33,840 bases of DNA, taken from contig NZ_LWEX01000135.1 in the NCBI RefSeq assembly GCF_001634885.1, positions 1 to 33,840 of the forward strand. The letters run 5' to 3'. Below the pieces are notes generated by a model. The model made no database searches, had not been told where the DNA came from, and saw only the letters and a list, made by a program, of their open reading frames with translations. The position numbers and the translations under genes are program-made. Shown here piece by piece: positions 35-24,930 of the stretch. The stretch's first letter is position 1. Every line of letters begins with the position of its first letter. The DNA comes from Sulfitobacter sp. HI0040 (GTDB lineage Bacteria > Pseudomonadota > Alphaproteobacteria > Rhodobacterales > Rhodobacteraceae).

Positions 35-111
35 GCGGTTGTAGCTCAGTTGGTTAGAGTACCGGCCTGTCACGCCGGGGGTCGCGGGTTCGAGCCCCGT
101 CAACCGCGCCA
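35..111 (+). tRNA. tRNA-Asp (anticodon GTC), copy 1
   Basis: A full cloverleaf can be drawn. The acceptor arm GCGGTTG pairs with CAACCGC, the D arm contains AGCTCAGTTGG, and the T arm contains GGGTTCGAGCCCC. The anticodon stem CCGGC/GCCGG (62-66 and 74-78) encloses loop CTGTCAC with anticodon GTC at 69-71. The discriminator base is G and the 3' CCA (109-111) is encoded. The 77 bases are identical to the second copy at 217. A terminator hairpin follows 10 bases downstream, so this copy appears to be its own transcription unit or the end of one that starts outside the window. Confidence 0.97.
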
Positions 112-216: not shown

Positions 217-293
217 GCGGTTGTAGCTCAGTTGGTTAGAGTACCGGCCTGTCACGCCGGGGGTCGCGGGTTCGAGCCCCGTCAACCGCGCCA
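217..293 (+). tRNA. tRNA-Asp (anticodon GTC), copy 2
   Basis: This is a 77-base perfect copy of the tRNA at 35-111, with the same GTC anticodon and encoded CCA. Only the tRNA body is duplicated: the flanks differ, and a terminator and promoter lie between the copies. That fits two functional genes raising tRNA-Asp dosage better than a recent longer duplication. Confidence 0.97.
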
Positions 294-20173: not shown

Positions 20174-20734
20174 TCAGTCGCCGCGGGACAGGGCGGCAAT
20201 GCCCGTGCGGGCCACTTCGCTGAGGCCGAGGGGCCGCATCAGATCCGCGAAAGCGTCGATCTTTTCCGGGGCGCCGGTGATCTCGAAAATGAAGCTTTCC
20301 AGCGTGCTGTCCACAACATTGGCGCGGAAGATATCCGCGAGCCGCAGCGCCTCCACCCGCTTTTCGCCGGTGCCCGACACCTTGAACATCGCCAGTTCCC
20401 GTTCCACGCTGGCGCCTTCGACCGTCAGGTCATGCACGTCATGTACGGTGACGATCCGACCCAGTTGCGCCTTGATCTGTTCGATCACCTGCGGCGTGCC
20501 GGAGGTGACGATGGTGATCCGCGACAGGTGCCCGGTATGGTCGACCTCTGCCACGGTCAGGCTGTCGATGTTGTAGCCGCGCCCCGAGAACAGCCCGATG
20601 ACCCGCGCCAGCACGCCCGGTTCGTTTTCCACCAGGACGGCAAGGGTGTGCCGTTCGATCACGTCGGAAAAATTGGGTCGCAGGTTGTAGGCGGAATGGG
20701 AGGTCGCGCCTTTCTTGATCTTCAGGGGGGACAT
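20174..20734 (-). CDS. ilvN: Acetolactate synthase small (regulatory) subunit
   Basis: The 186-residue regulatory subunit has an N-terminal ACT domain (HTLAVLVENEPGVLARVIGLF, about 29-100) that binds valine for feedback inhibition. A second ACT-like domain follows (about 105-182). It partners the catalytic IlvB encoded 1.4 kb upstream on the same strand. In most bacteria the two genes are adjacent in one operon; here a gene of opposite direction lies between them. ilvN would then need its own promoter, and a candidate is at 20760-20788. The symbol ilvH is used for the same protein in many genomes. Start ATG is at 20732-20734 after a GAGCGAGG tract. Confidence 0.95.
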   Translation of the reverse strand: MSPLKIKKGATSHSAYNLRPNFSDVIERHTLAVLVENEPGVLARVIGLFSGRGYNIDSLTVAEVDHTGHLSRITIVTSGTPQVIEQIKAQLGRIVTVHDVHDLTVEGASVERELAMFKVSGTGEKRVEALRLADIFRANVVDSTLESFIFEITGAPEKIDAFADLMRPLGLSEVARTGIAALSRGD

Positions 20735-20946: not shown

Positions 20947-21927
20947 ATGACATTTCAACGTTTGTTTGTCTTCGTTCTTTCGCTGATCGCGCTGGCGCTC
21001 GCGGTCCTCATCTCTCCAGAGCGGTTGGCGTCCATCGGTCTGATGGAGCAGTCGCTGGCCCATGAAAACCCGCTGGTCCGCAAGTCGACCCTGATCGAAA
21101 TTGTCTTCGCACGTTGGGTTTTTGCGGTGCTGGGGGGTGCGGGCCTGCTTGCTGTGATCCTGTGGCCGCGACTGGCTGGCAGCGCACGTCTCGCGCGCTT
21201 CATGGCGCGGGACTATGCCATGCCCGAGGCTTATGACAAGTTCCGACCGGGCCTGCGCAGTCTGGCGGCCATGGCGGGGCTTTACATGATTATCGTGCTT
21301 TACGTCATTTTCGGTGACCGACTGTTTTCCGTTGATACGCTGCTGGCCTTCAATCTTGAGGATGGCGTGATTGAAAACGTCTCGGCGGTGCTGTTGCTCG
21401 TTGCGGCCGTGTATGCGGCCTGGGTCGCCGTCACCGTGCGGGCTATCTATCCCAGGATGGCCCTGATGCACGGGTTTCTCGCTCTGCTGTTTGTTGTCAT
21501 GTGCGGTGAGGAGATCAGCTGGGGGCAGCGCTATCTGGGCATCGAGACGCCCGAGGCCATGCGGCGCATCAATGTGCAGGCTGAGATCAATTTCCATAAC
21601 CTTTTCGGTTACTTCTTCGATCATGCGTTTATTTTTTGTTTCTTCCTTTGGGGTGCCGTAGTCCCGGTTCTTGATCGCTATGTACCGCTGTGCCGGCAGG
21701 TGTTCCGCGCCATCGGATTGCCCATTGCCAGCGCGGGGCTGGCAATCGGGATGCTGGCCACGACGTTGTTTCAGGATCAGCTGGTTTACAGCTTTTCGGA
21801 CGGGTTGCCCGGCCTTCGGGTGGCAGAATTGCGCGAACTGCTTTCGGCGCTGGCCTTCCTGCTGATGATGATGGAATCCCGCGAGCTGGTCCGGGCCGCG
21901 CCGCGCACACTGGCGGCATCGCACTGA
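20947..21927 (+). CDS. Uncharacterised multi-pass inner membrane protein
   Basis: The 326-residue protein has about seven to eight hydrophobic helices, the first at residues 4-22. It carries a striking conserved-looking block, CGEEISWGQRYLGIETPE, followed by INVQAEINFHNLFGYFFDH. The acidic pair, the Trp-Gly-Gln, and the E-x-N-x-H-N string look like active-site or metal-binding residues at a membrane face, but I know of no assigned function. It lies between ilvB and ilvN on the opposite strand. Its base composition is visibly less GC-rich than its neighbours, with runs such as tttattttttgtttc near 21630, which suggests later insertion. A weak ribosome site precedes ATG 20947. No partner gene is adjacent. 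Confidence 0.8.
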   Translation: MTFQRLFVFVLSLIALALAVLISPERLASIGLMEQSLAHENPLVRKSTLIEIVFARWVFAVLGGAGLLAVILWPRLAGSARLARFMARDYAMPEAYDKFRPGLRSLAAMAGLYMIIVLYVIFGDRLFSVDTLLAFNLEDGVIENVSAVLLLVAAVYAAWVAVTVRAIYPRMALMHGFLALLFVVMCGEEISWGQRYLGIETPEAMRRINVQAEINFHNLFGYFFDHAFIFCFFLWGAVVPVLDRYVPLCRQVFRAIGLPIASAGLAIGMLATTLFQDQLVYSFSDGLPGLRVAELRELLSALAFLLMMMESRELVRAAPRTLAASH

Positions 21928-22138: not shown

Positions 22139-22174
22139 AGGCAACCCGGATCAGCGGGTGCCGCCCGGTTGCCT
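22139..22174. terminator. Inverted repeat at the ilvB 3' end
   Basis: AGGCAACC (22139-22146) pairs with GGTTGCCT (22167-22174), and ACCCG/CGGGT can pair inside as an alternative. The right arm reaches the last base of the ilvB stop codon. There is no T tract on either strand, so this may be an mRNA 3'-end structure and not an intrinsic terminator. The 245 bases 21928-22173 hold no other convincing feature. Confidence 0.35.
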
Positions 22175-23925
22175 CACACCAGCACCGAGCCCTTGGCGTC
22201 GATGACGCCTTGCGTATCCACGTCGCCCAGCAGCATTTCGTTATGGGCCTTGCCCGAGGGGATCATCGGGAAGCAATTTTCGTGCTTCTCCACAAGACAG
22301 TCGAGGATCACCGGGCCGGGGTGCTCGATCATCTCCATGATCGCATCGTCGAGCTTGTCGGGGTCGCTTACCTGGATGCCCTTCGCGCCGAAGGCTTCTG
22401 CCAGCTTCACGAAATCGGGCAGCGCCTCGGACCAGCTTTGGGAATAGCGCTCTCCGTGCAGAAGCTCCTGCCACTGGCGCACCATGCCCAGACGTTCGTT
22501 GTTCAGGATGAACTGTTTCACCGGCAGGCCGTACTGCATCGCGGTGCCCATTTCCTGCATGTTCATCAGCCATGACGCTTCGCCCGCCACGTTGATCACG
22601 AGGCTGTCGGGATGCGCCATCTGCACACCGATGGAGGCCGGAAAGCCGTAGCCCATCGTCCCCAGCCCGCCGGAGGTCATCCAGCGGTTCGGTTCCTCGA
22701 AACCCATGTATTGCGCGGCCCACATCTGGTGCTGGCCCACCTCGGTCGTCACGTAGCGATCATGGCCCTTGGTCAACTCCTCCAGCCGGCGGACGGCGTG
22801 CTGCGGTTTGATGGTCTTGCCTGCCTGCTTGTATTTCAGGCAATCCACCGCGCGCCAGCTTTCGATCTGTTTCCACCATTTCGCCAGCGCTTCGCCGTTC
22901 GTCTTGCGACCGCGCGATTTCCAGACCTTCAGCAGATCCTCGAGCACATGGCCCACGTCGCCGACGATGGGAATGTCGATGCGGATCACCTTGTTGATCG
23001 ACGAGGGGTCGATGTCGATATGCGCTTTTTTGGACTTGGGGCTGAACATATCCACGACGCCGGTGATCCGGTCGTCGAAACGCGCGCCGATGTTGATCAT
23101 CAGATCGCAGCCATGCATCGTCATGTTGGCCTCATAGGTGCCGTGCATCCCCAGCATGCCCAGCCACTTGTCGCCCGAGGCGGGATAGGCGCCCAGCCCC
23201 ATGAGGGTCGAGGTGATGGGAAAGCCTGTCGAGTCCACCAGCTCGCGCAGCAGCTGCGACGCGGCCGGGCCGGAGTTGATCACGCCGCCGCCGGTATAGA
23301 ACACGGGCTTTTTCGCGCTTTCGATGGCGGCCACGAGTTCCGTGATCTCTTCCATGTCGCCCTTAACCTTGGGCTGGTAATGAGAGGTCGACGGTTTGGG
23401 TGGCGCATAGGTGCCGGTGGCGAACTGCACGTCCTTGGGAATGTCGATCAGTACCGGACCGGGGCGGCCATGGGTCGCCACGTGGAATGCCTCATGCAGG
23501 ACGCCGGAGAGTTTGTCGGTCTCCTTCACCAGCCAGTTGTGCTTGGTGCAGGGGCGGGTGATGCCCACGGTATCGGCTTCCTGAAAGGCGTCAGAGCCGA
23601 TCATGAAGGTGGGGACCTGACCCGTCAGCACCACGATGGGAATGGAATCGAGCAGCGCATCGGTCAGCCCGGTCACGGCATTGGTCGCCCCCGGGCCGGA
23701 TGTCACTAGCACCACGCCGGGCTTCCCGGTGGAGCGGGCGTAGCCTTCGGCGGCGTGCACGGCACCCTGTTCGTGGCGCACCAGCACGTGTTTGATGCTG
23801 TTTTGCTGGAACACCTCGTCATAGATCGGCAGGACGGCCCCGCCGGGATATCCGAATATGGTATCGACACCCTGATCGATCAGGGCCTGTACGATCATCT
23901 TTGCTCCGGTCATCTGGCGTGTCAT
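22174..23925 (-). CDS. ilvB: Acetolactate synthase large (catalytic) subunit
   Basis: This ThDP- and FAD-dependent enzyme makes acetolactate or acetohydroxybutyrate in Val, Leu and Ile synthesis. The 583-residue protein starts at ATG 23923-23925 (MTRQMTGAKMIVQALIDQG); the frame opens at 23949. E52 in RHEQGAVHAAEG is the catalytic glutamate that activates ThDP. The ThDP-Mg motif is G448-E449-A450 with N475-N476. The usual aspartate (GDG/GDA) is thus replaced by glutamate, seen directly as GAA. Other family motifs (GYPGGAVLPIYD, TSGPGATN) are normal. Expression is probably set by the leader-peptide attenuator just upstream. The symbol ilvI is used for the same protein in some genomes. Confidence 0.96.
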   Translation of the reverse strand: MTRQMTGAKMIVQALIDQGVDTIFGYPGGAVLPIYDEVFQQNSIKHVLVRHEQGAVHAAEGYARSTGKPGVVLVTSGPGATNAVTGLTDALLDSIPIVVLTGQVPTFMIGSDAFQEADTVGITRPCTKHNWLVKETDKLSGVLHEAFHVATHGRPGPVLIDIPKDVQFATGTYAPPKPSTSHYQPKVKGDMEEITELVAAIESAKKPVFYTGGGVINSGPAASQLLRELVDSTGFPITSTLMGLGAYPASGDKWLGMLGMHGTYEANMTMHGCDLMINIGARFDDRITGVVDMFSPKSKKAHIDIDPSSINKVIRIDIPIVGDVGHVLEDLLKVWKSRGRKTNGEALAKWWKQIESWRAVDCLKYKQAGKTIKPQHAVRRLEELTKGHDRYVTTEVGQHQMWAAQYMGFEEPNRWMTSGGLGTMGYGFPASIGVQMAHPDSLVINVAGEASWLMNMQEMGTAMQYGLPVKQFILNNERLGMVRQWQELLHGERYSQSWSEALPDFVKLAEAFGAKGIQVSDPDKLDDAIMEMIEHPGPVILDCLVEKHENCFPMIPSGKAHNEMLLGDVDTQGVIDAKGSVLV

Positions 23926-23962
23926 CTGGCTGCTCCGTAAGGCGTGCAATTGTCTGGCGCAT

Positions 23963-23988
23963 AAAAAAGCCCCCGGGGAAACGGGGGC
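23963..23988 (-). terminator. Attenuator terminator in the ilvB leader
   Basis: Read on the minus strand, GCCCCCG, a 6-base loop and CGGGGGC form a 7-bp all-GC stem followed by TTTTTT. It stands 38 bases before the ilvB start codon and after the leader-peptide stop. Such a strong intrinsic terminator between promoter and coding region only makes sense as conditional. Confidence 0.9.
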
Positions 23989-24029
23989 GCATGGGTTGGG
24001 GTATGGTTGTCCGTTACCGGCCCATGCGC
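23987..24029 (-). promoter_or_regulatory. Predicted antiterminator of the ilvB attenuator
   Basis: On the minus strand GCGCATGGG (24021-24029) can pair perfectly with CCCATGCGC (23987-23995), nine base pairs. The second arm shares two bases with the terminator stem, so the two hairpins compete. The first arm is the Arg-Met-Gly codons at the end of the leader peptide. A ribosome reaching the stop codon would cover it and favour the terminator; one stalled at the Leu-Val-Val-Ile-Val codons would leave it free. Folding energies were not computed. Confidence 0.65.
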
Positions 24030-24061
24030 GAAAATCCTACGATGACGACTAGTGCTGTCAC
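24014..24061 (-). CDS. ilvB leader peptide, 15 residues
   Basis: The minus-strand frame GTG...TAA encodes MTALVVIVGFSRMGR. Five consecutive regulatory codons (Leu, Val, Val, Ile, Val) occupy positions 4-8, and these are the end products of the ilv pathway. A perfect AAGGAG (24069-24074) lies seven bases before the GTG start. It is followed by a terminator 26 bases past the stop. This is the standard design of ilv attenuators such as E. coli ilvBN and ilvGMEDA, where ribosome stalling for lack of charged tRNA prevents termination. The peptide itself probably has no function beyond being translated. Confidence 0.88.
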   Translation of the reverse strand: MTALVVIVGFSRMGR

Positions 24062-24089
24062 GTTTGGGCTCCTTCAAGCGTTGCGGGAC

Positions 24090-24116
24090 ATTATGACCGC
24101 CGTTCGGGAGGGTCAA
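24090..24116 (-). promoter_or_regulatory. Candidate promoter of the ilvB leader
   Basis: On the minus strand TTGACC (24111-24116) and CATAAT (24090-24095) are separated by 15 bases, shorter than the usual 16-18. Transcription would start near 24083, about 10 bases before the leader ribosome site. Both boxes are five-of-six matches. Bases 24117-24243, up to the response regulator stop, show no other feature. Confidence 0.55.
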
Positions 24117-24243: not shown

Positions 24244-24930
24244 TCAAAGGCGCGCGCCGGTCCCCTGCAGCACCCCATGTTCCATGGCATAGCGGGTCAG
24301 CCCGGCGGTGCTGGAGATGCCGAGCTTGCGCTTGATGTTCTTACGATGGGTTTCCACCGTCCGCACGGAGATATCGAGCGCCTGCGCCACGTCCTTGTTC
24401 GTGCGCCCCTGCGCGAGTTTGAGCAATATGGTCTGTTCACGCTCTGTCAGCGCCTCACGTTCTGCGCCGTCCTTGGGGGCGAGCGATCCCTGCGCGCCGG
24501 TGCAGAGGTAGCGTTTGCCCGACATTACCGTGTCGATGGCGGTCTTGATTTCTTCGGTGGGGACATCCTTCAGCAGGTAGCCCTGCGCGCCGTGACTGAG
24601 CGCGGAGGCGATGTACTCGGGATTGTCATGCATCGTCAGGATCACGACATGCATGTCCGGTCGGCGTTCCAGCACGATTTCCGTCGCGCTCAACCCGCCG
24701 AGTTCGGGCATGTTGAGGTCCATCAGGATCACATCGGGCGCCATTTCCTCCAGCTGCGCGATGACCTCGCGCCCGTTGGAAAGGATTCCCGCGATTTCGA
24801 TATCGTCATAGCTTTCGAGGATCGACTGGATGCCTTCGGCCACCATCGGGTGATCGTCGACGATGAGAACCCGGACCGGGTCGCCCGAAGAAGGCAGGGG
24901 TTTGGCTGCGGGCATGGGCCTTGCCGTCAT
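24244..24930 (-). CDS. NarL/FixJ family response regulator
   Basis: The 228-residue regulator has a receiver domain (about 20-135) with acidic pocket D25-D26, phospho-acceptor D71 (LMDLNMPE) and a Lys in YLLKDVP. A LuxR-type HTH follows (about 158-222, LTEREQTILLKLAQGRTNKDVAQALDIS...). It binds DNA as a dimer after phosphorylation. Its ATG (24928-24930) overlaps the histidine kinase stop as ATGA, so the two are translationally coupled and almost certainly a pair. A dyad next to the divergent TRAP operon promoter is a likely target. A short acidic-free N-terminal extension (MTARPMPAAKPLPSSGD) precedes the receiver. Confidence 0.93.
   Translation of the reverse strand: MTARPMPAAKPLPSSGDPVRVLIVDDHPMVAEGIQSILESYDDIEIAGILSNGREVIAQLEEMAPDVILMDLNMPELGGLSATEIVLERRPDMHVVILTMHDNPEYIASALSHGAQGYLLKDVPTEEIKTAIDTVMSGKRYLCTGAQGSLAPKDGAEREALTEREQTILLKLAQGRTNKDVAQALDISVRTVETHRKNIKRKLGISSTAGLTRYAMEHGVLQGTGARL

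Follow-up and report, generated by a model that had tools for sequence, protein, structure and literature searches.

A very small, probably ribosome-mediated attenuator of ilvB kept across Rhodobacteraceae, and related leaders before an MFS transporter gene

Attenuation of ilv genes is already known in Alphaproteobacteria. In Caulobacter crescentus, the ilvBN attenuator is described, in the accessible text of a citing paper, as having tandem Ile and Val codons and a Rho-independent terminator, with read-through when charged tRNA-Ile/Val is low (Tarleton, Malakooti & Ely 1994, cited in PMC4117421). Likewise, a putative cis-regulatory element from an attenuation study is mentioned for Sinorhizobium meliloti ilvIH (Vitreschak et al. 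2004, cited in the accessible part of PMC2573895). By these descriptions alone, both are like the leader reported here, since the first serves the same genes in an alphaproteobacterium and the second precedes the large-subunit gene in another. Within the same order, Rhodobacterales, the uORFC-8-2 motif before cysS has been proposed, in the portion of the source available, to work by ribosome-mediated attenuation with a conserved uORF (PMC8632094). It shares uORF attenuation with the ilvB leader, but its codons are for Cys, the gene is another and so is the structure. The E. coli leaders thrL, trpL, ilvL and hisL offer a further comparison, as they too have a leader peptide with control codons, a hairpin sensitive to the ribosome and a terminator. 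Among the literature matches listed, none dealt with a Rhodobacteraceae leader of this kind or with an MFS-linked valine attenuator, most subscription papers being beyond the search. As far as those matches show, what is new here is a 15-codon layout shared by the family, a hairpin around the stop codon, the very small overlap between the two main helices, and the link to a transporter gene and to the Rfam family Atu_C8.

The window is a 33,840-nucleotide stretch of DNA from Sulfitobacter sp. HI0040. On its minus strand, at 24116-23963, the sequence reads as a leader of ilvB in which every part listed by a first-pass annotation, made from the letters alone, is present; its counts of pairs (nine), codons (fifteen), control codons (five) and T residues (six) are all exact. 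The helix that it had called an antiterminator is referred to here as P1. The features are as follows.

24111..24116, minus strand: −35-like box TTGACC, read from the sequence
24090-24095, minus strand: candidate −10-like box CATAAT, with a 15-nt spacer, read from the sequence
24088-24093, minus strand: alternative candidate −10-like box TAATGT, with a 17-nt spacer, read from the sequence
24069..24074, minus strand: Shine-Dalgarno AAGGAG, 7 nt 5′ of the GTG, read from the sequence
24014..24061, minus strand: leader ORF, 15 codons followed by TAA, encoding M T A L V V I V G F S R M G R (MTALVVIVGFSRMGR), from sequence and family comparison
24061 (start GTG) and 24016-24014 (stop TAA), minus strand: ends of the leader frame, from the sequence
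24038..24052, minus strand: control codons 4-8, CTA GTC GTC ATC GTA (Leu Val Val Ile Val), from the sequence
24021..24029, minus strand: P1 5′ arm, GCGCATGGG, from the third base of codon 11 to the second base of codon 14, from sequence and comparison
24011..24020, minus strand: stop-codon hairpin CCG-GTAA-CGG, with the TAA inside a GNRA-type tetraloop, from family comparison
23987..23995, minus strand: P1 3′ arm, CCCATGCGC, making 9 perfect pairs with the 5′ arm, from sequence and comparison
23969..23988, minus strand: intrinsic terminator stem GCCCCCG(TTTCCC)CGGGGGC, 7 bp, with arms 23988-23982 and 23975-23969
23963..23968, minus strand: U-tract of six T, read from the sequence
22174..23925, minus strand: ilvB, acetolactate synthase 3 large subunit, the gene proposed to be controlled, NF006581 (PRK09107)
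20947-21927, plus strand: ORF of 326 aa with the look of a membrane protein, between ilvB and ilvN
20174..20734, minus strand: ilvN, acetolactate synthase small subunit, with a PF10369 match at 20180-20401

Upstream of the leader start, TTGAC occurs within 110 nt in 122 of 123 selected family leaders and an SD-like motif is found in 113 of them; a −10 match of at least 4/6 at a spacer of 15-19 was scored in only 52. The IlvB protein matches NF006581 with 1130.5 bits (cut-off 974), its start being taken as ATG 23925, with a TTG at 23949 also open. The plus-strand ORF lies between ilvB and ilvN, so the ilvB leader need not control ilvN, and the two genes are probably not one simple transcript in the window. 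A gene for a NarL/MctR-like response regulator (24244-24930, minus strand; 265.3 bits against NF052445, below the cut-off of 300) ends upstream of the leader. The leader itself folds better than its own shuffles (z −2.70; 2 of 200 shuffles as good). At the gathering level, Rfam finds only two tRNA genes in the whole window (35-108 and 217-290, plus strand, near each other and with equal Rfam scores) and no cis-regulatory leader family in the leader. Below that level, Atu_C8 (RF02502) reaches 20.6 bits on the leader, with gathering at 50; three other sub-threshold matches in the window, seen in E-value mode and one of them on the opposite strand, were taken as chance.

The layout is not confined to this genome. 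Inspection by eye showed a near-identical leader before ilvB in 80 titled records (Sulfitobacter, Ruegeria, Leisingera, Roseovarius, Yoonia and others), apart from a Nereida locus (L081) without the leader and one (L078) truncated by a contig end. For counting, 149 genomes of the family were used, nearly all of different genera, from which 148 ilvB-upstream regions were read, G017 and G021 being excluded and G024 giving two copies. A rule devised after such leaders had been seen, which asks for a uORF 13-18 codons long in which 4 or more of 5 codons are branched-chain, followed by a terminator, picks out 120 of the 148 regions, against 1/148 reverse strands and 1/2960 dinucleotide shuffles. 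With a looser scorer, leaders were called in 140 of the regions and in 8 none. Exactly 15 codons are present in 111 of those 140; thus, the layout that the first-pass annotation had described as minimal is indeed compact, but it is not peculiar to one genome.

After 17 of the 140 were excluded (few control codons, length, or no terminator found), the remaining 123 leaders made up alignment A1, from which the covariance model R1 was built. This model matches 137 of the 149 family genomes, and in 134 the match lies 23-110 nt before ilvB, which is a count rather than an independent test, since all 123 model sequences come from the same genomes. Of the 15 genomes without an ilvB-linked match, one (G017) carries a leader that lies at a contig end, ahead of an apparent ilvB start read by eye; two others, G122 and G130, are in the alignment (as L240 and L241) and were overlooked when the search was filtered. 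In the window's own genome, R1 is confident at the ilvB locus only, the next best match having E = 1. Peptide, P1 and terminator are therefore kept family-wide, where a lack of such conservation in related genomes had been named at the outset as an argument against attenuation, and this supports reading the locus as a putative ribosome-mediated ilv attenuator.

In 88 ilvB-upstream stretches from the class (two sets, of 28 and 60), of which at least two (L280 and L286) are misplaced, their contigs starting near the gene, the only calls of a 15-codon RMG leader were L262 and L263, which come from genomes of the same family. The bare string CGCATGGG also occurs in L269. Other short frames rich in branched-chain codons were seen before ilvB (L288/L120, L305, L307, L308 and L336; e.g., MSLLIVPCAPNEGLA and MINSLVNVVVVLLVEVRRA). 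In addition, a longer ilvB-upstream uORF with the recurring pattern 'EIxSxI..xGLT' is present in other Alphaproteobacteria (L270-L272, L289, L292, L293, L295, L314, L319 and L328), and these uORFs are possibly another conserved leader type.

The five control codons counted in the window are real and general in the family, where they occupy positions 4-8. In 105 leaders of 15 codons, 500 of the 525 codons at these positions encode Leu, Ile or Val, a share that is partly built in, as the leaders had been preselected for at least 4 branched-chain codons in some 5. What this selection does not build in is the fixed position of the control block and its choice of codons. CTA makes up 36% of the leader Leu codons, but 1.9% of those in ilvB itself at the 80 titled loci, and GTA 56.6% of the leader Val codons, compared with 4.9% in the same genes; no ATA codons were seen in the leaders. 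Spacing is also close to constant: in 75 of 122 leaders, the P1 arm ends 17 nt beyond the last control codon, and in 92 of 122, 4 nt lie between this arm and the stop codon. Although 12 different amino acids occur at codon 11, its third base is G in 103 of 105 leaders, and P1 opens with this G. Thus, it is the RNA, and not the peptide, that accounts for the end of the frame.

Alignment of the leaders, suggested in the first-pass annotation as a check for covariation, reveals compensatory changes in P1. In this helix (helix 1), 95.5% of the cells are paired and 6 of the 9 pairs are changed on both sides. For instance, the P1 arm of L170 is largely different and the pairing is kept (GCGCAGTCGC/GCGACTGCGC), and L239 has a swapped pair. 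In 22 divergent leaders, the best helix score averages 21.1 with their own arms and 16.7 with swapped ones, although 15% of the swaps attain the median of the leaders' own. The terminator is paired in 96.1% of its cells in A1, its presence having been one entry criterion for that alignment.

Directly 3′ of the P1 arm, a further small hairpin is formed by CCG and CGG flanking G-UAA or G-UGA, so that the stop codon sits in a GNRA-type loop (CCTGTAACAGG, GTCTCTAAGAGAC and CGGATGTAGGACATCCG are examples). In this hairpin (helix 2), 89.5% of the cells are paired and all 3 pairs are changed on both sides. The exact form is found in 77 of 123 leaders. A score of at least 8 is reached in 118 of 123, the threshold being lenient: among the 40 non-canonical leaders, 35 attain it with their own halves, compared with 58% with swapped halves. 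Nevertheless, the mean score of these 40 is 10.45 with their own halves against 7.39 with swapped ones, and 0 of 2000 permutations attain the former. Taken together, P1 and the stop-codon hairpin beat all 500 shuffles on all five measures used, where, by the comparative tool's own caveat, shuffles of related sequences give no probability. They also beat slid controls on paired cells and covariation score; by the number of pairs changed on both sides, one slid control ties with the real structure (9 vs 9). In the window, the stop-codon hairpin is absent from the minimum-energy fold of the leader, in which another small pairing is preferred in that loop.

These comparisons also bear on two readings in which the short frame would not act as a sensor in cis. 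The element could in principle be the ordinary terminator of an upstream transcript next to a short ORF present by chance; lone terminators are common and several weak model matches elsewhere span the terminator only. However, the leader is in register with ilvB in 134 of 149 genomes, just 1 of 2960 shuffles passes the rule, and compensatory changes are present, which makes this explanation extremely improbable. It is also very unlikely that a metabolite-binding riboswitch, or a small RNA or peptide acting in trans, takes the place of the ribosome as the sensor. In its favor, P1, the stop-codon hairpin and a frequent second mini-hairpin further 3′ (63% of leaders vs 26% of shuffles, which is suggestive only) resemble a small junction, the relative Atu_C8 is classed in Rfam as an sRNA, and trans roles are reported for the S. 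meliloti trp leader RNA and its peptide in the accessible text of PMC10117765. Nevertheless, a conserved frame, branched-chain codons in several synonymous forms and a preference for rare codons are all explained by translation, and roles in trans would be compatible with attenuation.

Most probably, then, this leader is a ribosome-mediated transcription attenuator of ilvB, and the following course may be proposed from comparison of the sequences. RNA polymerase would make the leader and a ribosome would translate its 15 codons. If Leu-, Val- or Ile-tRNA were short, the ribosome would stall with one of codons 4-8 in the A site, its leading edge being at or just before P1, and P1 would form. 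P1 would then abut the terminator and hold the bases of its basal 2-3 pairs, leaving the terminator as a short stem at least 2 bases from the U-tract, and the polymerase would read into ilvB. With amino acids plentiful, the ribosome would reach the stop codon and cover the P1 5′ arm, the full terminator would form, and transcription would stop. One may guess that the stop-codon hairpin speeds the folding of P1 or keeps the ribosome on the P1 arm. No protector (1:2) hairpin was noticed by eye in these leaders.

The leader, the conserved codon block, P1, the stop-codon hairpin, the terminator, their spacing and the two-base overlap of P1 with the terminator were all computed. The spacing is that expected of such a device if a ribosome is taken to shield the 15 nt that follow the first base of its P-site codon. 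Under this footprint, all 9 bases of the P1 5′ arm are free when the A site holds any of codons 2-7; the number falls to 7, 4 and 1 at codons 8, 9 and 10, respectively, and to 0 from codon 11 onward. Consequently, the control codons 4-8 fall in the permissive stretch. P1 thus fits the class of helices that a ribosome can cover, its 5′ arm going from free to blocked between A-site codons 8 and 11, again with the assumed footprint. The stop codon is 25 nt from the terminator stem in 59 of 122 leaders (range 22-36), which agrees with the distance of more than 20 given for amino-acid attenuators in the accessible part of PMC4824070.

How P1 would act on the terminator is less straightforward. In the window, the two share 2 bases, 23988-23987, and both are present in the minimum-energy structure. 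In 122 leaders (one short segment of the 123 being excluded), the overlap is 2 nt in 52, 3 nt in 55, 1 nt in 2 and 4 nt in 2, and a gap of 1-4 nt separates the helices in the other 11. The penalty for the coexistence of P1 and the terminator is 4.0 kcal/mol in the window, with a median of 4.0 and a range of −3.4 to 10.6 among the 122, whereas the same measure gives 12.0, 7.9, 12.2 and 10.9 kcal/mol for E. coli thrL, trpL, ilvL and hisL, whose competing helices cover 5-9 nt of the terminator 5′ arm. These values do not support P1 as a classic antiterminator that excludes the terminator; any competition would be for its base only. When the leaders are folded with ribosome positions masked, as the first-pass annotation had proposed, P1 and the terminator both form and do not behave as exclusive alternatives. 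For the 95 canonical leaders usable from the 123, the terminator has a mean pair probability of 0.78 without a ribosome; this becomes 0.85 and 0.97 when codon 4 or codon 8, respectively, occupies the A site, and 0.98 with the ribosome at the stop codon, and that of P1 stays at 0.83-0.86. At equilibrium, therefore, the model predicts that the terminator is hardly weakened by P1, least at codon 8. The last codons of the peptide do form an arm of the helix, as had been claimed (the P1 arm is in codons 11-14), but the claim that ribosome position directly chooses the fold does not hold as stated, in view of the 2-nt overlap and of the presence of both helices in the minimum-energy fold. Any such choice would be restricted to the terminator's basal pairs, unless the effect is steric.

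One way out would be attenuation of the classic kind with a true antiterminator, in which a pairing other than P1 excludes the terminator upon a stall. The enteric leaders, with their long competing helices and high penalties, are a precedent, and in 108 leaders an average of 55% of the terminator 5′ arm is paired at the stage before synthesis of the 3′ arm, with the P1 overlap accounting for only part of this. However, where a helix covering at least 4 nt of the terminator 5′ arm can be found (115 of 122 leaders, with the same start in 79), the best has a median of −6.7 kcal/mol, compared with −18.0 for P1. In the search for a hidden antiterminator, the usual best was a 4-bp helix, which is too weak; it pairs GGGC with GCCC or GCCU in the six leaders that were inspected. 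A classic antiterminator is thus improbable here.

The basal pairs themselves offer another route. Extraction of the RNA from the hybrid within a transcription complex depends on a terminator's basal pairs, and a balanced fight for them could therefore decide termination. The shared pairs are worth nearly the same in the terminator (−8.6 kcal/mol) as in P1 (−7.6), and without them the terminator has −6.4 instead of −14.2 kcal/mol (medians of the 111 overlapping leaders; −7.9 instead of −14.6 in the window). From these features we would infer stalling, read-through and a weakening of the terminator by P1, either by taking bases or by crowding the RNA exit channel. The stealing of bases is not the whole story in the 11 gapped leaders or where gaps of the Atu_C8 type occur (see below), for which steric abutment or pausing may be the alternative.

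Pausing could also be the main role of P1 throughout: the polymerase would wait near the terminator loop for the ribosome, and timing, instead of competition for bases, would set termination. Pause hairpins act at a distance of 10-12 nt, and the terminator loop ends approximately one such distance downstream of P1; leaders in which a gap parts P1 from the terminator are accommodated as well. By itself, however, pausing gives no reason for read-through upon starvation, and the overlap of 2-3 nt in 107 of 122 leaders is unnecessary for a pause, so that this appears a rather unlikely account of the element.

Elements of the same kind are found before a gene of another function. In a sample of the class, R1 matches 18 of 386 genomes at E ≤ 0.001, 6 of them in the window's family and 12 in 10 other families. 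All 12 matches outside the family (L362-L373) precede genes related to one MFS transporter (47-68% identity in the 11 others when the L362 protein was the tblastn query). For the first 90 residues of this transporter, the best NCBIfam name is Bcr/CflA efflux, TIGR00710, below the full-length cut-off. The leaders before it are mostly Val-rich (e.g., MHILIVVVGERRLDR and MNTGVVLVGSRRMDR), and in several of them the stop-codon hairpin seems weaker by eye. Four genomes of the window's family also carry a transporter copy (L401-L404); named copies are on Roseobacter denitrificans OCh 114 pTB1, Phaeobacter piscinae pP14_b and a Leisingera caerulea plasmid. A second model, R2, made from 19 transporter leaders, recovers the same 12 genomes outside the family at E ≤ 2.4e-18 and gives weak matches in 16 further genomes. 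At the loci of 5 of these 16 (L424, L426, L427, L429 and L431), no ilvB or MFS relative was found by tblastn and the matches seem due to chance; so do three extra R1 matches (L406, L407 and L408), near which tblastn found no MFS relative.

Among 34 plasmid records with a relative of the MFS protein, 10 homologues were examined, with an R1 match in 7 (including L411, L412 and L414) and none in 3 (L416, L417 and L410). In L410 (Agrobacterium tumefaciens pAt2), the MFS homologue lies behind a TPP riboswitch (RF00059, positions 515-631, 74.6 bits) and not behind the attenuator, a hint that the substrate of that copy is related to thiamine.

The Rfam family Atu_C8 is linked to the same transporter family. 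In the literature matches listed, this name occurred only as a string in an unrelated rice paper. At the gathering level, RF02502 is found in 6 of 36 genomes of one other family (L119 and L254-L258) and on four Rhizobium plasmids, of etli 8C-3, lusitanum, sp. BG4 and sp. 007 (L413, L415, L418 and L419). In all 10 of these loci, a Bcr/CflA-like MFS gene is directly downstream, and a frame with R-M-G near its end (R-V-G in L255) can be seen by eye. Like the ilvB leader, Atu_C8 has P1 arms (GCGCAUGGG/CCCAUGCGC), R-M-G codons, a stop-codon hairpin and a terminator; unlike it, Atu_C8 is Val-rich, precedes the MFS gene and has a gap of 7 nt between P1 and the terminator in the 3 leaders measured. 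The idea that Atu_C8 is a Rhizobiales ilv attenuator was rejected, as the 10 gathering-level loci examined precede the MFS gene instead. In the class sample, RF02502 is at the gathering level in 1 of 241 genomes and at E ≤ 0.01 in 13; of 17 loci there, L120 and L121, both below threshold, precede ilvB by tblastn. The simplest reading of these sequences is that Atu_C8 would be the terminated leader of the MFS gene and not an independent small RNA.

Somewhat more tentatively, with a little less than an even chance in our judgment, all of these leaders may be one portable RNA element, consisting of a branched-chain codon block, a P1 arm in the last codons, a stop-codon hairpin and an abutting terminator. 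Across Alphaproteobacteria it would serve two unrelated jobs, before ilvB in Rhodobacteraceae and before the Bcr/CflA-like MFS gene in other families and on plasmids, with Atu_C8 as the terminated leader of the transporter gene. It would work without a true antiterminator, P1 either taking the basal pairs of the terminator or blocking it by abutting.

In the light of the transporter copies, the supposed small RNA family Atu_C8 looks like an attenuator, and a valine-linked role may be suspected for an MFS family that is annotated as multidrug efflux. The ilvB leaders provide a clean comparative case of a very small attenuator, in which sensor codons, a hairpin that a ribosome can cover and a terminator are kept in near-constant register in more than 100 genera. 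If it is true that P1 prevents termination while sharing just 2-3 bases, then the basal pairs of a terminator would be a sufficient regulatory target, and searches that are now limited to large, mutually exclusive folds would be broadened. For the family itself, a leader of approximately 100 bases probably allows a gene of branched-chain amino acid synthesis to be switched on whenever a ribosome stalls at a sensor of five codons.
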